Positions 48,725 to 54,265 of a stretch of DNA of 64,000 nucleotides are shown one piece after another. This stretch comes from Synechocystis sp. LKSZ1. GTDB lineage: Bacteria > Cyanobacteriota > Cyanobacteriia > Cyanobacteriales > Microcystaceae. The position numbers and the translations under genes are program-made. The number at the start of each line of letters is the position of its first letter. The stretch's first letter is position 1. The stretch spans positions 434,001-498,000 of the forward strand of contig NZ_AP031572.1 in NCBI RefSeq assembly GCF_040436315.1, given 5' to 3'. Under the pieces are notes generated by a model. The model was not told the origin of the DNA and did no database searches. It saw nothing but the letters and a program-made list of their open reading frames with translations.

Positions 48725-48830
48725 GGCCAGATGATAGGAATAATCAGGTATCTTGTATTCAGCAATATCGACAGGGCCAGGTAAATGGGGCAAGATTTCA
48801 ATGGTGACAACAGGGTCTAGGGACGAACCG

Positions 48831-49475
48831 ATGGCGCTCAAGCTTTATTTTCTGCGACATGGCCAGACCGCCTACAGCGAAACGGGCGGTTACTGTGGCA
48901 CCCCTGAAAATGACCCTGGTTTAACCCCTGAGGGGATAGAAATGGCCGAAGCCTTTGCCGAGGCCTATTGTCATCTGCCGTGGCAAGCGGTATATGTCAG
49001 CCCTCTGCAACGGGCCATCCAAACGGCTAAGCCCTTGTGTAACCGTCTGAAGATTACCCCAGAAATCCGGCCAGGCCTGAGGGAAGTCTCCTACGGTGAA
49101 TGGGAAGGATTGCATCCCCGCCAAGTCTATGAGCGCTACCACGATCTTTACATGCAGTGGCTAACCGACCCGGCCTGGAATTCACCACCGGGAGGGGAAC
49201 GGGGAATTGATATTGCCCGGCGTTCCTACCATGTCCTCGAAGAAATTGAAGACCGCTATGCGACGGGGAATGTTCTCCTCGTCTCCCACAAAGCCACTAT
49301 CCGCATCATGCTGTGCCACCTGATGGGCATTGATATTGGCCGCTACCGAGACCGATTTGCCATGCCCGTGGCTGGGATGAGTATTGTTGAATTAGCGTCC
49401 CGTGGCCCTCTCTTTCACGTCATTGCTGACCGCTCCTACCTCAGCCCCTACCTGCGAAGCCTACCCTGTACTTGA
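48831..49475 (+). CDS. histidine phosphatase (phosphoglycerate-mutase-like)
   Basis: 214 residues from the ATG at 48831. RHG with the phospho-accepting His lies at 8-10 (FLRHGQT), the second Arg in SPLQRAIQTA, Glu in REVSYGEWEG, and the second His in VSHKATIRIML near 150. Cyanobacterial members of this type include cofactor-dependent-mutase-like phosphoserine phosphatases, so that activity is possible; mutase activity is not shown. The last 74 bases of the gene are repeated at 50422-50495, beyond a toxin-antitoxin cassette. Confidence 0.85.
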   Translation: MALKLYFLRHGQTAYSETGGYCGTPENDPGLTPEGIEMAEAFAEAYCHLPWQAVYVSPLQRAIQTAKPLCNRLKITPEIRPGLREVSYGEWEGLHPRQVYERYHDLYMQWLTDPAWNSPPGGERGIDIARRSYHVLEEIEDRYATGNVLLVSHKATIRIMLCHLMGIDIGRYRDRFAMPVAGMSIVELASRGPLFHVIADRSYLSPYLRSLPCT

Positions 49476-49497: not shown

Positions 49498-49571
49498 GCC
49501 TTTGATGTACCCGGGATAAAAGGTATTATGATTTCAAGTTTTAAGCCAGAAAATTGGCTCAGGGTTAGTAT
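49498..49571 (+). repeat. inner direct repeat B, left copy
   Basis: These 74 bases align without gaps to 50264-50337 (about 53 matches; both ends conserved: gcctttgatgta and ctcagggttagtat). With the outer pair (49402-49475 and 50422-50495) the order is A-B-cassette-B'-A', all in the same orientation. Confidence 0.65.
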
Positions 49572-49848
49572 AACGGCTAAAGTGAGCCGCAACAGTTGAC
49601 CTTTAACGTTTAACTACGTTTGAGAGGTCGACCCCAACGCAGTGTTAAGCTTCTGTCTTTGGGCGATTTGCATGAGCATCCGAAGTGCTTCATTAACTGA
49701 ATCACTTGTCGGAAATGCTTGAGCAACATCAAGATCTAGCAATACTACATTAGTCCCGGCCCTGTAGCGTTCGACATATTTTCCTCTAACACCACCCTGC
49801 ATTTTGCTAAAGTCGTATTCAGGATGCAATTCGTCTTCTAGTTCTTGG

Positions 49849-50149
<301 letters not shown>

Positions 50150-50263: not shown

Positions 50264-50337
50264 GCCTTTGATGTATCCGAGACAGAAAGAAATATACCTT
50301 TAGACTCAAAACTGGAGAGTTGTCTCAGGGTTAGTAT
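50264..50337 (+). repeat. inner direct repeat B, right copy
   Basis: Diverged partner of 49498-49571 (about 72% identity without gaps), 692 bases from the left copy's end, same orientation. Confidence 0.6.
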
Positions 50338-50421: not shown

Positions 50422-50495
50422 GTGGTACTCTCTTTCACGTCATTGCTGACCGCTCCTACCTCAGCCCCTACCTGCAAAGCCTACCCTGCACTTAA
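50422..50495 (+). pseudogene. 3' fragment of the histidine phosphatase gene (outer repeat A')
   Basis: 74 bases matching 49402-49475 with 5 differences. The reading frame LFHVIADRSYLSPYL and a stop codon are kept (TAA instead of TGA), with one residue change (Arg to Gln). The sequence before 50422 is not part of the phosphatase gene. Confidence 0.85.
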
Positions 50496-50502
50496 TGCCA
50501 AG

Positions 50503-50577
50503 TTGCTAAAACTCAGTTACATAACTGACCCCACCCGTCCTCCCCTTCGCAAGGGGAGGTGCCGGAGGCGGAGGGGT
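50503..50577 (+). repeat. dispersed hairpin repeat, copy 2
   Basis: Contains the perfect hairpin CCTCCCCTT-cgc-AAGGGGAGG (about 50539-50559) followed by ggcggaggggt, preceded by tgaccccacc. It begins 7 bases after the phosphatase fragment. Confidence 0.85.
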
Positions 50578-50631: not shown

Positions 50632-51552
50632 CTAGATATCACCTAAGACTTTGAGTAGATCTGCTTTTTTCATTCTGCTGGTTCCAGGGATACCTTTTTC
50701 CTGAGCTAGCTTTCTCAATTGAGTAATAGGAAGTTCATCTAATGATGGTTCAGGCTTGACGAGAGGGGTTGTATAAAAAACCTCTTTGAAACTGTCTAGT
50801 TTTTTGCCTTTTGTAATTCCACACTTTAAGCTCACAACTTCGGTGAGGCTTTCCTGCCAGTATTGACGCTCTGGAACATCCAATTTATCTAAAGCGGTTG
50901 CAATGTTAAGGGTTGGCAGAGGATTATCAGAATGATGGACTAAATACTCCAAGCCTGATTGGATTTCCTCTCGACTAGCAGTGGTTAGGTTGATTGATGG
51001 CTTAAGAACTTTAGGTGGCTCTGCATAAAAGACCTCTTTAAAAATATCTAATTTTTTCCCCTTGGTAATGGCGCATTTCAGACCCGTAATTTCGTTTAGG
51101 CTGGCTTTCCAGGACTGGCGCTGAGGCACATCAATTTTTTCTAAAGCGGTGGCTAAGGTAACGCCAACAAGGGGATTAACGGGCCGACGAATTAAATAAT
51201 CTAGGCCGAGTTTAATTTCTTCGCGGCTAGCCGTCGTCAAATTAATTCTGGGGATTTTCTCCTGGGCCAAGAGTTGAGCGCAATTCTGAGTCGCTTCAGT
51301 ATCATCGGCAATAATGCACCAGACTTTATTAATACCGGCTTCTTCAGCGGCCGCCAAAATGAAAGTATTGGCTATGGCCTGAAAGGATTCTGCGCCAGTT
51401 TGTTTAACAATGACTGGCATCCAATTTCGTCCACCGGCTTCATTAATGGCCTTAGCCGAACTGGTAATCAAAAAGCGATGGGCTTGTGTCGGTTGGCCCG
51501 GTTTAATTTCGTCTAAATAAATATGTAGTAGGGTTCCAATATCTTGTTGCAT
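50632..51552 (-). CDS. ParB-like protein with duplicated KGKK domain and Rho_N-type C-terminus
   Basis: 306 residues. Residues about 10-85 have a ParB/RepB-nuclease-like pattern (INEAGGRNWMPVIVKQ, then FILAAAEEAGINKVWCIIADD). Two copies of a 74-residue unit follow (103-176 and 187-260), each with INLTTASREEI, a central DVP-x-RQ-x-W helix, and ITKGKKLD-x-FKEVFY. The end (270-305, LDELPITQLRKLAQEKGIPG and KKADLL) is a Rho_N/SAP-like helix-extension-helix that binds nucleic acid or partner proteins. It starts on the last base of the ParA-fusion gene, so the two are coupled. I know no characterised protein with this architecture; a partition or defence role is inferred. Confidence 0.75.
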   Translation of the reverse strand: MQQDIGTLLHIYLDEIKPGQPTQAHRFLITSSAKAINEAGGRNWMPVIVKQTGAESFQAIANTFILAAAEEAGINKVWCIIADDTEATQNCAQLLAQEKIPRINLTTASREEIKLGLDYLIRRPVNPLVGVTLATALEKIDVPQRQSWKASLNEITGLKCAITKGKKLDIFKEVFYAEPPKVLKPSINLTTASREEIQSGLEYLVHHSDNPLPTLNIATALDKLDVPERQYWQESLTEVVSLKCGITKGKKLDSFKEVFYTTPLVKPEPSLDELPITQLRKLAQEKGIPGTSRMKKADLLKVLGDI

Positions 51553-52946
51553 TAGATGAAATACTCCTCGACGAATCGTTTATAGGCGACAAAAGCTAAC
51601 TGATTGGTAAGCGCTGCTGGACGACGGGAAAAATGAGCTGAAGAAATATGGGCTATATTGGGCAAATTGAAAATTTCTTCATTTTTTACCATTTCTGTCT
51701 TCTTGGGAAAGAAGAAGGGAGTCAAGTCTATTTTGTCAGATTGCATCACATTGTCAATGATTTTGTTAATCTCTTCCCTCGCTTGCTTTTCTTGAGCCGG
51801 TGTCATTTGCTCCCCATTAAAAAAGATAGGTAAAGGTGTCGGATCAGCTAACTCAGGTGAATAAACACGGCGTTCCTGACCCAGTTGAGGAAGAATGTCC
51901 TTCATCGCCGTAGCGGCATTATTCAGCGATGCTAATCCGTTATGCTTGGATGGCATCAAAACAACATCTGACGCAATAATTGCCTCTTTGGTAAAATAGT
52001 TTGAGCCTGGAGGAGCATCAATTAAAATATAGTCGTATTTATTTTTAACTCTGCTTAGAATTTTTCCAAGCGACCCTTTATAAAGAATTGAGGGCAAAGA
52101 TGAGGGGGGAACTTCCAAAAAACCTTCATCAGCAGGAATGACATCAAAAAAACGATACCATTTACCATCTTTAAGTTTTATTGGATAGGGAGAGATCAGA
52201 TCATCAATTGCATAGTCTTTTGAATTTGAATCTTTAAGAAAGTCTAATAATTTGACTTTTCCTGGTTTAATACCAAGAATCTCTGTCAGATCTTTTTGGT
52301 TGGGATCAAAATCTACAACTAAAACCTTTTTCCCAAATCCGCCCTTGGCAGAGGGAAGCGACAATATTGAAGCTAAATTAATGGTTGTTGTTGTTTTACC
52401 GACACCTCCCTTATTATTGTAGAGAGCGATGACAAGAGAATTACAATTGTTTTCGATGTAGTCTTTGAGTAAATATATTTTTTCATCAATATTCCCGGCA
52501 TTTAATTCAATGTTATTTGTAAAGGGATAAATGACTTTACCATGGCGACGAAAGAGTTGAATACGGTCTGCATTTGTTATAATTCCCCATTTTGCTTGAG
52601 AACAATTGATAGCTTCTGGGTCTAAATATCCTTTTAATTGTCTTACTAAAGATAAGTATTCAGCAGTATTAGGGGAGATATTTTTACTTCGTCTCTTTAG
52701 TTCTACAATCAGAGAAGGAGCTTTTAGAGAGTGAGAAAAATTATCTATGCCATTATTTTTTCGGGCGGCAATATCAACTTTTTGTGCTCCCAAACCAGTT
52801 GGATACTCTTTGACAATCTCACCTCTTTGAAACGTAAAGCCAAAGAGTTTTAGCATCTCTGGAATGACCAAGTGATCAGCAATCATCGGCTCGAGTGCTC
52901 CTGGTGCTAGGTTTAGCCAGGCCTGTTGGAGAGAAGTGTGTGCCAT
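51552..52946 (-). CDS. HsdR-like nuclease domain fused to a ParA ATPase
   Basis: 464 residues from the ATG at 52946 (TTG at 53021 would add 25 unconserved residues). Residues 1-165 resemble the N-terminal nuclease domain of type I restriction subunits: Asp58 in QKVDIA, Glu82-x-Lys84 in LIVELKRR, and Gln103-Tyr107 in RQLKGYL, which fits the QxxxY motif. Residues 172-464 are a ParA/MinD ATPase with the deviant Walker A NKGGVGKTT (178-186), VVDFDPNQ (210-217) and YILIDAPPGSNYFTKEA. DNA from 51601 to 52919 contains no GGCC, whereas core genes are full of it, so the gene is probably acquired. Coupled to the ParB-like gene. Confidence 0.85.
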   Translation of the reverse strand: MAHTSLQQAWLNLAPGALEPMIADHLVIPEMLKLFGFTFQRGEIVKEYPTGLGAQKVDIAARKNNGIDNFSHSLKAPSLIVELKRRSKNISPNTAEYLSLVRQLKGYLDPEAINCSQAKWGIITNADRIQLFRRHGKVIYPFTNNIELNAGNIDEKIYLLKDYIENNCNSLVIALYNNKGGVGKTTTTINLASILSLPSAKGGFGKKVLVVDFDPNQKDLTEILGIKPGKVKLLDFLKDSNSKDYAIDDLISPYPIKLKDGKWYRFFDVIPADEGFLEVPPSSLPSILYKGSLGKILSRVKNKYDYILIDAPPGSNYFTKEAIIASDVVLMPSKHNGLASLNNAATAMKDILPQLGQERRVYSPELADPTPLPIFFNGEQMTPAQEKQAREEINKIIDNVMQSDKIDLTPFFFPKKTEMVKNEEIFNLPNIAHISSAHFSRRPAALTNQLAFVAYKRFVEEYFI

Positions 52947-53462: not shown

Positions 53463-53740
53463 GTTGGAGTAACTGCCAAGAATTTTGTCGAAAATTATCT
53501 TAAGTTGACAGGCAAACAATATCAATTTTATTGGCTAAAAAATCAACCTCTATGACTCTAATTGTAATTATTTAGACTATACTCAGTGACTCAAGCCCAA
53601 CAAAATGCCCTAATACCAAATCTCTGAGACCTAACTACACAAGTGACCCCACCCATCCTCCCCTTCGCAAGGGGAGGTGCCTGAGAAGCGCGAAGGCGGA
53701 GGGGTGAAGAGCTACAATAGCACCAATAGACGGCATCTCT
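53463..53740 (+). other. intergenic stretch with repeat copy 3
   Basis: 278 bases. Contains a 21-base sequence actcaagcccaacaaaatgcc (53589-53609) that recurs at 54311-54331, and dispersed repeat copy 3. The DUF559 gene follows 35 bases after the repeat. Confidence 0.7.
53614..53705 (+). repeat. dispersed hairpin repeat, copy 3
   Basis: The fullest copy: taccaaatctctgagacc, gtgaccccacccatcctcc, the CTCCCCTT-cgc-AAGGGGAG hairpin, gtgcctgag, ggcggaggggt. It carries a 10-13 base insertion (aagcgcgaa) before the last block, as does copy 4. Confidence 0.88.
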
Positions 53741-54151
53741 ATGACTATAATTTTCAACCAAGCCTCCGAAAAAGAGAAAAGGAGACAGCTACGCCAAAAT
53801 CCAACCAAAGCAGAGAGCATTGTTTGGCAATATTTCAAAGGTAAAAAAATTGCGAACTGTAAATTTCGCCGTCAGTATAGTATTGGGCCGTTTGTTGTAG
53901 ACTTTTATTGCCCAGAACTGAAACTAGCCATTGAAATAGACGGAGAAAGCCATGATAGCCTTGAAGCCCAAGCCTATGACTTGAATAGACAGCAATATAT
54001 CGAAGCTTTTGGTATTAGTTTTTTGCGATTCACCAATCAGCAAATTTATGAAAATGCAGAATCTGTAATGATGAGCATTGTCGATCACGTCAATTATTTA
54101 AGAAAGAAAATGTCCATGCTCCATCATCAGGCATTAGAAAATGAATGCTAG
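53741..54151 (+). CDS. DUF559 (Vsr/restriction-like fold) endonuclease-type protein
   Basis: 136 residues. The RRQLRQNPTKAESIVW start, KFRRQYSIGPFVVDFYC, and AIEIDGESHD match DUF559, a PD-(D/E)XK-type domain related to Vsr mismatch nucleases. Putative active-site residues are Asp54 and Glu65-x-Asp67. Its biological role is not established. The gene is flanked by dispersed repeat copies (3 upstream, 4 and 5 downstream) in the same orientation and by the 21-base repeat, so repeats and gene may travel together. Confidence 0.85.
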   Translation: MTIIFNQASEKEKRRQLRQNPTKAESIVWQYFKGKKIANCKFRRQYSIGPFVVDFYCPELKLAIEIDGESHDSLEAQAYDLNRQQYIEAFGISFLRFTNQQIYENAESVMMSIVDHVNYLRKKMSMLHHQALENEC

Positions 54152-54185
54152 GCCCATCCTGTCCTTATCTTTACTAAGCGATTGC

Positions 54186-54265
54186 TTAGGCCCAACGGTA
54201 CAACCGACCCCTCCCACCCTCCCCTTGGCAAGGGGAGGTGCCTGAGCTGGCGAAGGCGGAGGGGT
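54186..54265 (+). repeat. dispersed hairpin repeat, copy 4
   Basis: Hairpin core CCCTCCCCTT-ggc-AAGGGGAGG (about 54218-54239), then gtgcctgagctggcgaa and ggcggaggggt. The 5' third is more diverged than in copy 3. Confidence 0.82.

Follow-up and report, generated by a model that had tools for sequence, protein, structure and literature searches.

Type I partition systems (ParABS) combine a deviant-Walker ATPase, ParA, with the CTPase ParB. Partition ATPases move DNA and other cargo, but they are not known to cut DNA. The two-gene module described here resembles these systems in that a deviant-Walker ParA is encoded first, a partner with a ParB fold is encoded second, and the two genes overlap. 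However, its ParA has a PD-(D/E)XK nuclease domain in place of the HTH domain or short N-terminus, the partner has neither the GxxR motif nor the ParB HTH, no parS was found, and the module is usually a chromosomal accessory gene. Restriction enzymes are the typical setting of HSDR_N domains, and the nuclease domain is similar to the N-terminal nuclease of HsdR (HSDR_N / HSDR_N_2) in its PD-(D/E)XK core, in the D, ExK and QxxxY motifs and in a conserved W-G-I-I-T-N...Q-L-F hairpin. Unlike HsdR of type I restriction, the module has no SF2 helicase motor and no HsdM or HsdS, and its ATP module is ParA. Thus, it does not belong to type I restriction-modification, which is defined by an SF2 translocase together with HsdM and HsdS.

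Regulators that have a ParB/sulfiredoxin (Srx) fold and no role in partition (Noc, PadC, DndB and sulfiredoxin), as presented in passages of a survey of this fold (PMC12704722), share with the second protein the N-terminal fold and the fusion to lineage-specific domains, whereas the module's protein has no GxxR P-motif and its partner gene encodes a nuclease-ParA. In the same passages, this motif is a marker of NTP binding, and its R-to-A change served as a negative control. The main text of the survey names DUF3850 fusions alone as consistently co-encoded with parA, and the terms "Rho" and "HSDR" are absent from it (PMC12704722). The passages found in this survey and in surveys of BREX do not mention the module. 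McdAB and other ParA-type positioning systems (PMC6328274, PMC10241942) are also alike, since they are cyanobacterial and pair a ParA with an atypical partner, and McdA is among the fold matches of the first protein; however, the module differs in the ParB fold of its partner and in the nuclease domain fused to its ATPase. Among the main texts of openly accessible articles that were searched, none describes a ParA that is fused to a nuclease and paired with a ParB-fold protein. Neither protein is spanned in full by a family of Pfam, NCBIfam, PADLOC or PHROG, and the module is apparently undescribed.

Architecture of the locus and its two proteins

The module lies on the minus strand of a 3.67-Mb cyanobacterial chromosome, in a 64-kb stretch of DNA that was analyzed as a whole (the window). 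The host belongs to the same family as Microcystis. Its features are as follows.

51552-52946, minus strand: gene A, 464 aa, PD-(D/E)XK nuclease fused to a ParA ATPase
52443-52946, minus strand: A residues 1-168, HsdR_N-type PD-(D/E)XK domain (HSDR_N_2 in relatives, element order in the AlphaFold2 model, residue counts)
51555-52442, minus strand: A residues 169-464, ParA ATPase (AAA_31, E 2.5e-28; Foldseek Soj/ParA/McdA, 1e-14)
50632-51552, minus strand: gene B, 306 aa, protein with a ParB fold, KGKK units and Rho_N
51259-51552, minus strand: B residues 1-98, ParB/sulfiredoxin-fold domain (ParB_N in 57 of 58 relatives, Foldseek; no GxxR P-motif)
51025-51246, minus strand: B residues 103-176, helical unit 1 (CAITKGKKLDIFKEVFY; AlphaFold2 model and comparison of the units)
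50773-50994, minus strand: B residues 187-260, helical unit 2 (49 residues identical to unit 1)
50653-50742, minus strand: B residues 271-300, Rho_N / SAP / HeH-like tail (Rho_N E 5e-8; in 51 of 58 relatives)

The TAA stop codon of A occupies 51552-51554, and the ATG of B begins on its final base (TAATG). An earlier reading, made from the sequence alone (the sequence-only reading), had given these coordinates and this one-base overlap correctly. The ATG start of A at 52946 is consistent with the N-termini of its relatives. The same reading had considered the DNA to be free of GGCC and acquired. The former is nearly true of A, which has one GGCC site (0.7/kb vs 12.2/kb in the window), but not of B, which has seven (7.6/kb), all within its first half. 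Acquisition holds, as it is supported by the low GC content of the module (38–43% vs 50%).

The catalytic set of the nuclease domain consists of E19, D58, E82-L-K84 and Q103-LKG-Y107. Among 53 relatives of A, E19, E82, K84 and Q103 are present in all, D58 in 52 and Y107 in 49; these residues are invariant or nearly so despite about 50% divergence. In a Pfam search, the window copy alone scored below the HSDR_N_2 cut-off. This family matched 45 of the 53 relatives (best E 1.9e-8), and A of locus L118 passed the curated cut-off (27.6 vs 25 bits, residues 19-130). For both the nuclease and the ParB assignments, therefore, the proof is carried by the relatives rather than by the window copies. The AlphaFold2 model of A (pLDDT 92.8, pTM 0.91) contains a helix (19-34), strands 44-49, 56-61 and 79-83, a second helix (95-108) and strands 120-124 and 128-135. 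This is the order of elements in the PD-(D/E)XK core: D58 lies on one strand, E82/K84 on the next, and Q103/Y107 on the helix after them. The domain thus has the D, (D/E)xK and QxxxY residues on an alpha-beta core together with a profile match, as is characteristic of the HSDR_N type. However, when the whole A chain was searched with Foldseek, the best 50 matches were all ParA-type folds and none was to the nuclease domain, so the assignment of the nuclease fold is based on profile, motif and order of secondary structure. The dN/dS of the nuclease part (~0.16) equals that of the ParA part (~0.16), so the nuclease domain is maintained. One relative (L097:9837-11216, minus strand) has G in place of D58 and T in place of K84, is otherwise complete and is accompanied by a B gene; judged by these substitutions, it is a natural catalytic-dead module.

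The remainder of A has the deviant Walker A motif KGGVGKTT at 179-186, with the signature residues K179 and K184, and the Walker B residue D310, all three kept in 53 of 53 relatives. Pfam AAA_31/ParA matched residues 172-339 (E 2.5e-28), Foldseek of the model returned Soj, ParA and McdA at 1e-14, and the best PDB sequence matches were ParA structures of the archaeal plasmid pNOB8. With KGGxGKT(T/S), the signature lysine and the Walker B Asp, this domain is a ParA/MinD deviant-Walker ATPase.

The N-terminal domain of B has the ParB/Srx fold. For the window copy, ParB_N gave a weak score (E 0.064), but it matched nearly all relatives (best E 1.5e-5), with the scores of individually examined B proteins all under Pfam's cut-off, and an AlphaFold2 model (pLDDT 93.8) matched ParB, Noc, PadC and sulfiredoxin in Foldseek at E 6.5e-5 and up. 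The GxxR P-motif of NTP binding is absent. In its place stands an invariant N-x-F (N62 and F64 in 58 of 58 relatives), followed by I, V or A at 65, and no Arg occurs in either register. Similarly, no ParB HTH family, the central domain that reads parS, was among the Pfam matches listed for the 58 relatives of B; helical units are found there instead. Most relatives (225-235 aa) have one unit and Rho_N. Two units with Rho_N were observed in the window copy, in Snowella (L111) and in Hydrocoleum (L112, judged by length), two units without Rho_N in Okeania, Trichodesmium, Microcoleus-type and other B proteins, and one unit without Rho_N in distant plasmid copies. Unit number and tail are therefore variable parts of B. 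In a profile search the helical unit also resembled BCL10 CARD (E 0.05), which was judged to be chance.

Much of the sequence-only reading of the two proteins was borne out by these data: the HsdR-like nuclease with D58, E82-x-K84 and Q103-x3-Y107, the deviant Walker A ATPase in the same chain, the ParB-like partner, its two 74-residue repeats (49 of 74 residues identical) and the Rho_N tail. The predicted structure agreed with the nuclease in the order of its elements. The "duplicated KGKK units" are true of the window copy and of few relatives, whereas most relatives have a single unit.

Distribution, replicons and inheritance

An alignment-based scan with B of 84,980 GTDB species genomes yielded 142 loci, of which 80 were kept, and all 80 were cyanobacterial. 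A single-sequence scan of genome contigs with P0001 gave no match. One contig from a viral collection brings the total to 81 loci. In 71 of these, the two genes are adjacent and share a strand, with A first, and in most the genes overlap by 1-4 nt (mainly 4 nt, six with 1 nt); the other 10 loci are mostly contig ends or broken A genes. The module occurs in roughly 9–12% of 386 sampled cyanobacterial genomes (B matched in 52, several via the Rho_N tail alone, and the N-terminus of A in 48), and three further species of the host's genus in this sample do not have it. No homologs of the module were detected in INPHARED phages. The viral-collection contig (L191, IMG/VR) resembles a plasmid; by eye, its genes include a Rad52-like and an ImmA/IrrE-like one.

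In complete genomes, the copies are mainly chromosomal and scattered. At least six cyanobacterial plasmids also carry the module: unnamed4, unnamed9 and unnamed10 of Nostoc UHCC 0870, pLBA of Leptolyngbya (two strain records), and ABRG53g and pPg_01 of Pseudanabaena. The three Nostoc plasmids also have ParM or ParAB. On ABRG53g (12.6 kb), the module is the sole ParA-type ATPase and is found alongside CyRepA1. No canonical parS was detected in the window, and the upstream regions of relatives contained no iterons or conserved motif, the only shared k-mers being the common HIP1 palindrome. Beyond synteny within genera, no conserved neighboring genes were found; the neighbors are mostly housekeeping genes that change between genera, with no conserved link to repair genes and no HsdM or HsdS among conserved neighbors. 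In PADLOC profiles, 88 families matched 134 neighbor proteins and 56 matched 134 random proteins of sampled carrier genomes, these being counts of families rather than proteins. Since much of this signal was generic (IscS-like, TnpB, kinases) and the counts are at the level of families, we do not claim an enrichment of defense genes, and none was evident in this comparison. The module proteins themselves gave weak P-loop matches alone in PADLOC-DB v2 and do not belong to the anti-phage systems known there. Rfam gave no match.

Both genes are under purifying selection (dN/dS of B, about 0.13), and the nuclease, ParA and B evolve together, with correlations of pairwise distances of 0.83–0.88. 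The tree of A and B is at odds with taxonomy: the window copy is found with Roseofilum and S06, Microcystis copies group with Microcoleus EPA2 and Leptolyngbyaceae, and Nostocales occur in several places. Together with the low GC content, this tree suggests horizontal movement followed by stable inheritance within genera. On these sequence comparisons, the module is conserved, patchy and horizontally mobile, mostly chromosomal and sometimes located on plasmids. Several loci have one gene only. A is intact without a downstream B in five genomes, namely four Thermosynechococcus-like ones (L101, L102, L103 and L109) and L093; an intact catalytic ExK was read directly in all of these except L109, and in three of the five an ABC-type ATPase gene comes next. 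Conversely, 8 of 80 loci combine an intact B with an A that is broken or missing, a count biased by the discovery of loci via B. In MAGs of the lichen symbiont Rhizonema with intact B, A is degraded (L177), absent (L172) or cut by the contig end (L166).

Possible functions

Our tentative preference is that the module is an ATP-gated nuclease complex, made of partition parts, that controls invading or competing DNA. We infer that A cuts DNA, that dimerization upon ATP binding pairs its nucleases, and that B binds both A and DNA. In this scheme, A and B would be translationally coupled subunits of a single complex. With ATP, A would dimerize and grip DNA non-specifically, as suggested by ParA biochemistry, and the dimer would bring a pair of nuclease domains onto a single duplex. 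B may attach to A via its ParB-like fold and to DNA via its tail, which is of the nucleic-acid-binding SAP/HeH type, and might tune the ATPase of A and hence the timing and place of cutting. Because it has no NTP-binding Arg and no parS-binding domain, B is more likely to sense targets or regulate the ATPase than to act as a sliding CTP clamp. It is possible, if somewhat doubtful, that the module is a stand-alone cyanobacterial DNA-interference system in which B is a nucleotide-independent, ParB-like target sensor for the ATP-gated nuclease. Such a mobile cassette would act on plasmids and phage rather than in chromosome segregation. The near-invariant catalytic residues, co-evolution, gene coupling, mobility and low GC content argue for a nuclease complex, and the nuclease class, patchiness, mobility and decay of A beside intact B, with the bias noted above, are consistent with the anti-phage or plasmid interference that the sequence-only reading had also proposed. 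However, the module encodes neither a methylase nor any other self/non-self mark, enrichment of defense genes was not evident, the copy in L097 has lost D58 and K84, and on ABRG53g the module is the sole ParA-type ATPase, as a partition locus would be. On balance, control of foreign or plasmid DNA is more likely than DNA segregation.

The situation on ABRG53g would be expected of a plasmid-derived system for partition or positioning, though an unconventional one. In it, ParA would move B-bound DNA along the nucleoid, and the nuclease domain would serve to bind, nick or resolve the cargo DNA. Gene order, coupling and ParA class match plasmid par operons, the closest PDB sequence matches are also from a plasmid ParA, and the plasmid copies, above all the one beside CyRepA1, would fit. 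Nevertheless, we regard this explanation as unlikely: most copies in complete genomes are chromosomal and scattered, the Nostoc carrier plasmids already have ParM or ParAB, B has no GxxR and no detected ParB HTH, neither canonical parS in the window nor upstream motifs or iterons were found, and the invariant nuclease residues are left unexplained. According to the sequence-only reading, ordinary partition would show itself in homologs that always lie on plasmids together with replication genes and parS sites. This is not the distribution observed, and the module is not a canonical ParABS. It could also be asked whether the nuclease domain is a DNA-binding or assembly part alone in a ParA system that positions cargo, given that type Ia ParA has an HTH domain in the same N-terminal place and that L097 has lost two catalytic residues. 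This is very improbable, as E19, D58, E82, K84 and Q103 are kept in 52-53 of 53 relatives and pure binding would not require them.

A role in genome maintenance, with A and B processing intermediates of recombination or replication in the polyploid chromosomes of cyanobacteria, would agree with the mostly chromosomal location, the stability within genera such as Microcystis and the purifying selection. It is quite unlikely, however, for a module that some 90% of cyanobacteria, close relatives among them, do not have, and that has no conserved link to repair genes and shows signs of horizontal transfer. The sequence-only reading had also suggested addiction, in which A would be a DNA-cutting toxin and B its antitoxin. 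Two overlapping, mobile genes found on plasmids and chromosomes, with several loci retaining a broken A beside intact B, have this appearance. In toxin-antitoxin operons, the antitoxin gene is usually first, whereas here A is first and larger than B, and no toxin family matched. Moreover, a toxin should not be maintained without its antitoxin, but A persists intact in the five genomes in which B, sought at the locus, was not present. A simple toxin-antitoxin pair is therefore disfavored, and we consider it highly unlikely. If the module is indeed an ATP-gated nuclease complex, it would tie plasmid segregation to DNA restriction and represent a new way of gating a nuclease by an ATP switch. With two genes in 2.3 kb the module is small, and it occurs in groups that are tractable (Microcystis and Nostoc relatives).

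Flanking DNA

At lower coordinates than the module, the final 72 nt of a phosphoglycerate-mutase-like ORF (48753-49475), located at 49402-49475, recur 1 kb further on at 50422-50493 with 94% identity, and a second partial repeat is present at 49498-49571 and 50264-50337 (70%). Between the copies of the former lies a small gene pair, BrnA/BrnT-like by eye (49614-49880 and about 49901-50128, both on the minus strand). Its toxin-like ORF stops early, as if frameshifted near the C-terminus, and its 88-aa ORF had no Pfam or NCBIfam match. The repeats flanking this toxin-antitoxin-like pair suggest an insertion that duplicated its target. Another repeat of ~75 nt, around CCTCCCCTTSGCAAGGGGAGG, is present in three copies (50493-50567, 53611-53685 and 54172-54246) that flank the module and a DUF559 gene. 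As just eight exact cores occur in the whole genome, this repeat could be small, mobile and linked to the insertion. The module is immediately preceded, on the opposite strand, by the DUF559 gene (53741-54151, plus strand), which codes for a DUF559 / MTES_1575 endonuclease-like protein (E 3.8e-29).
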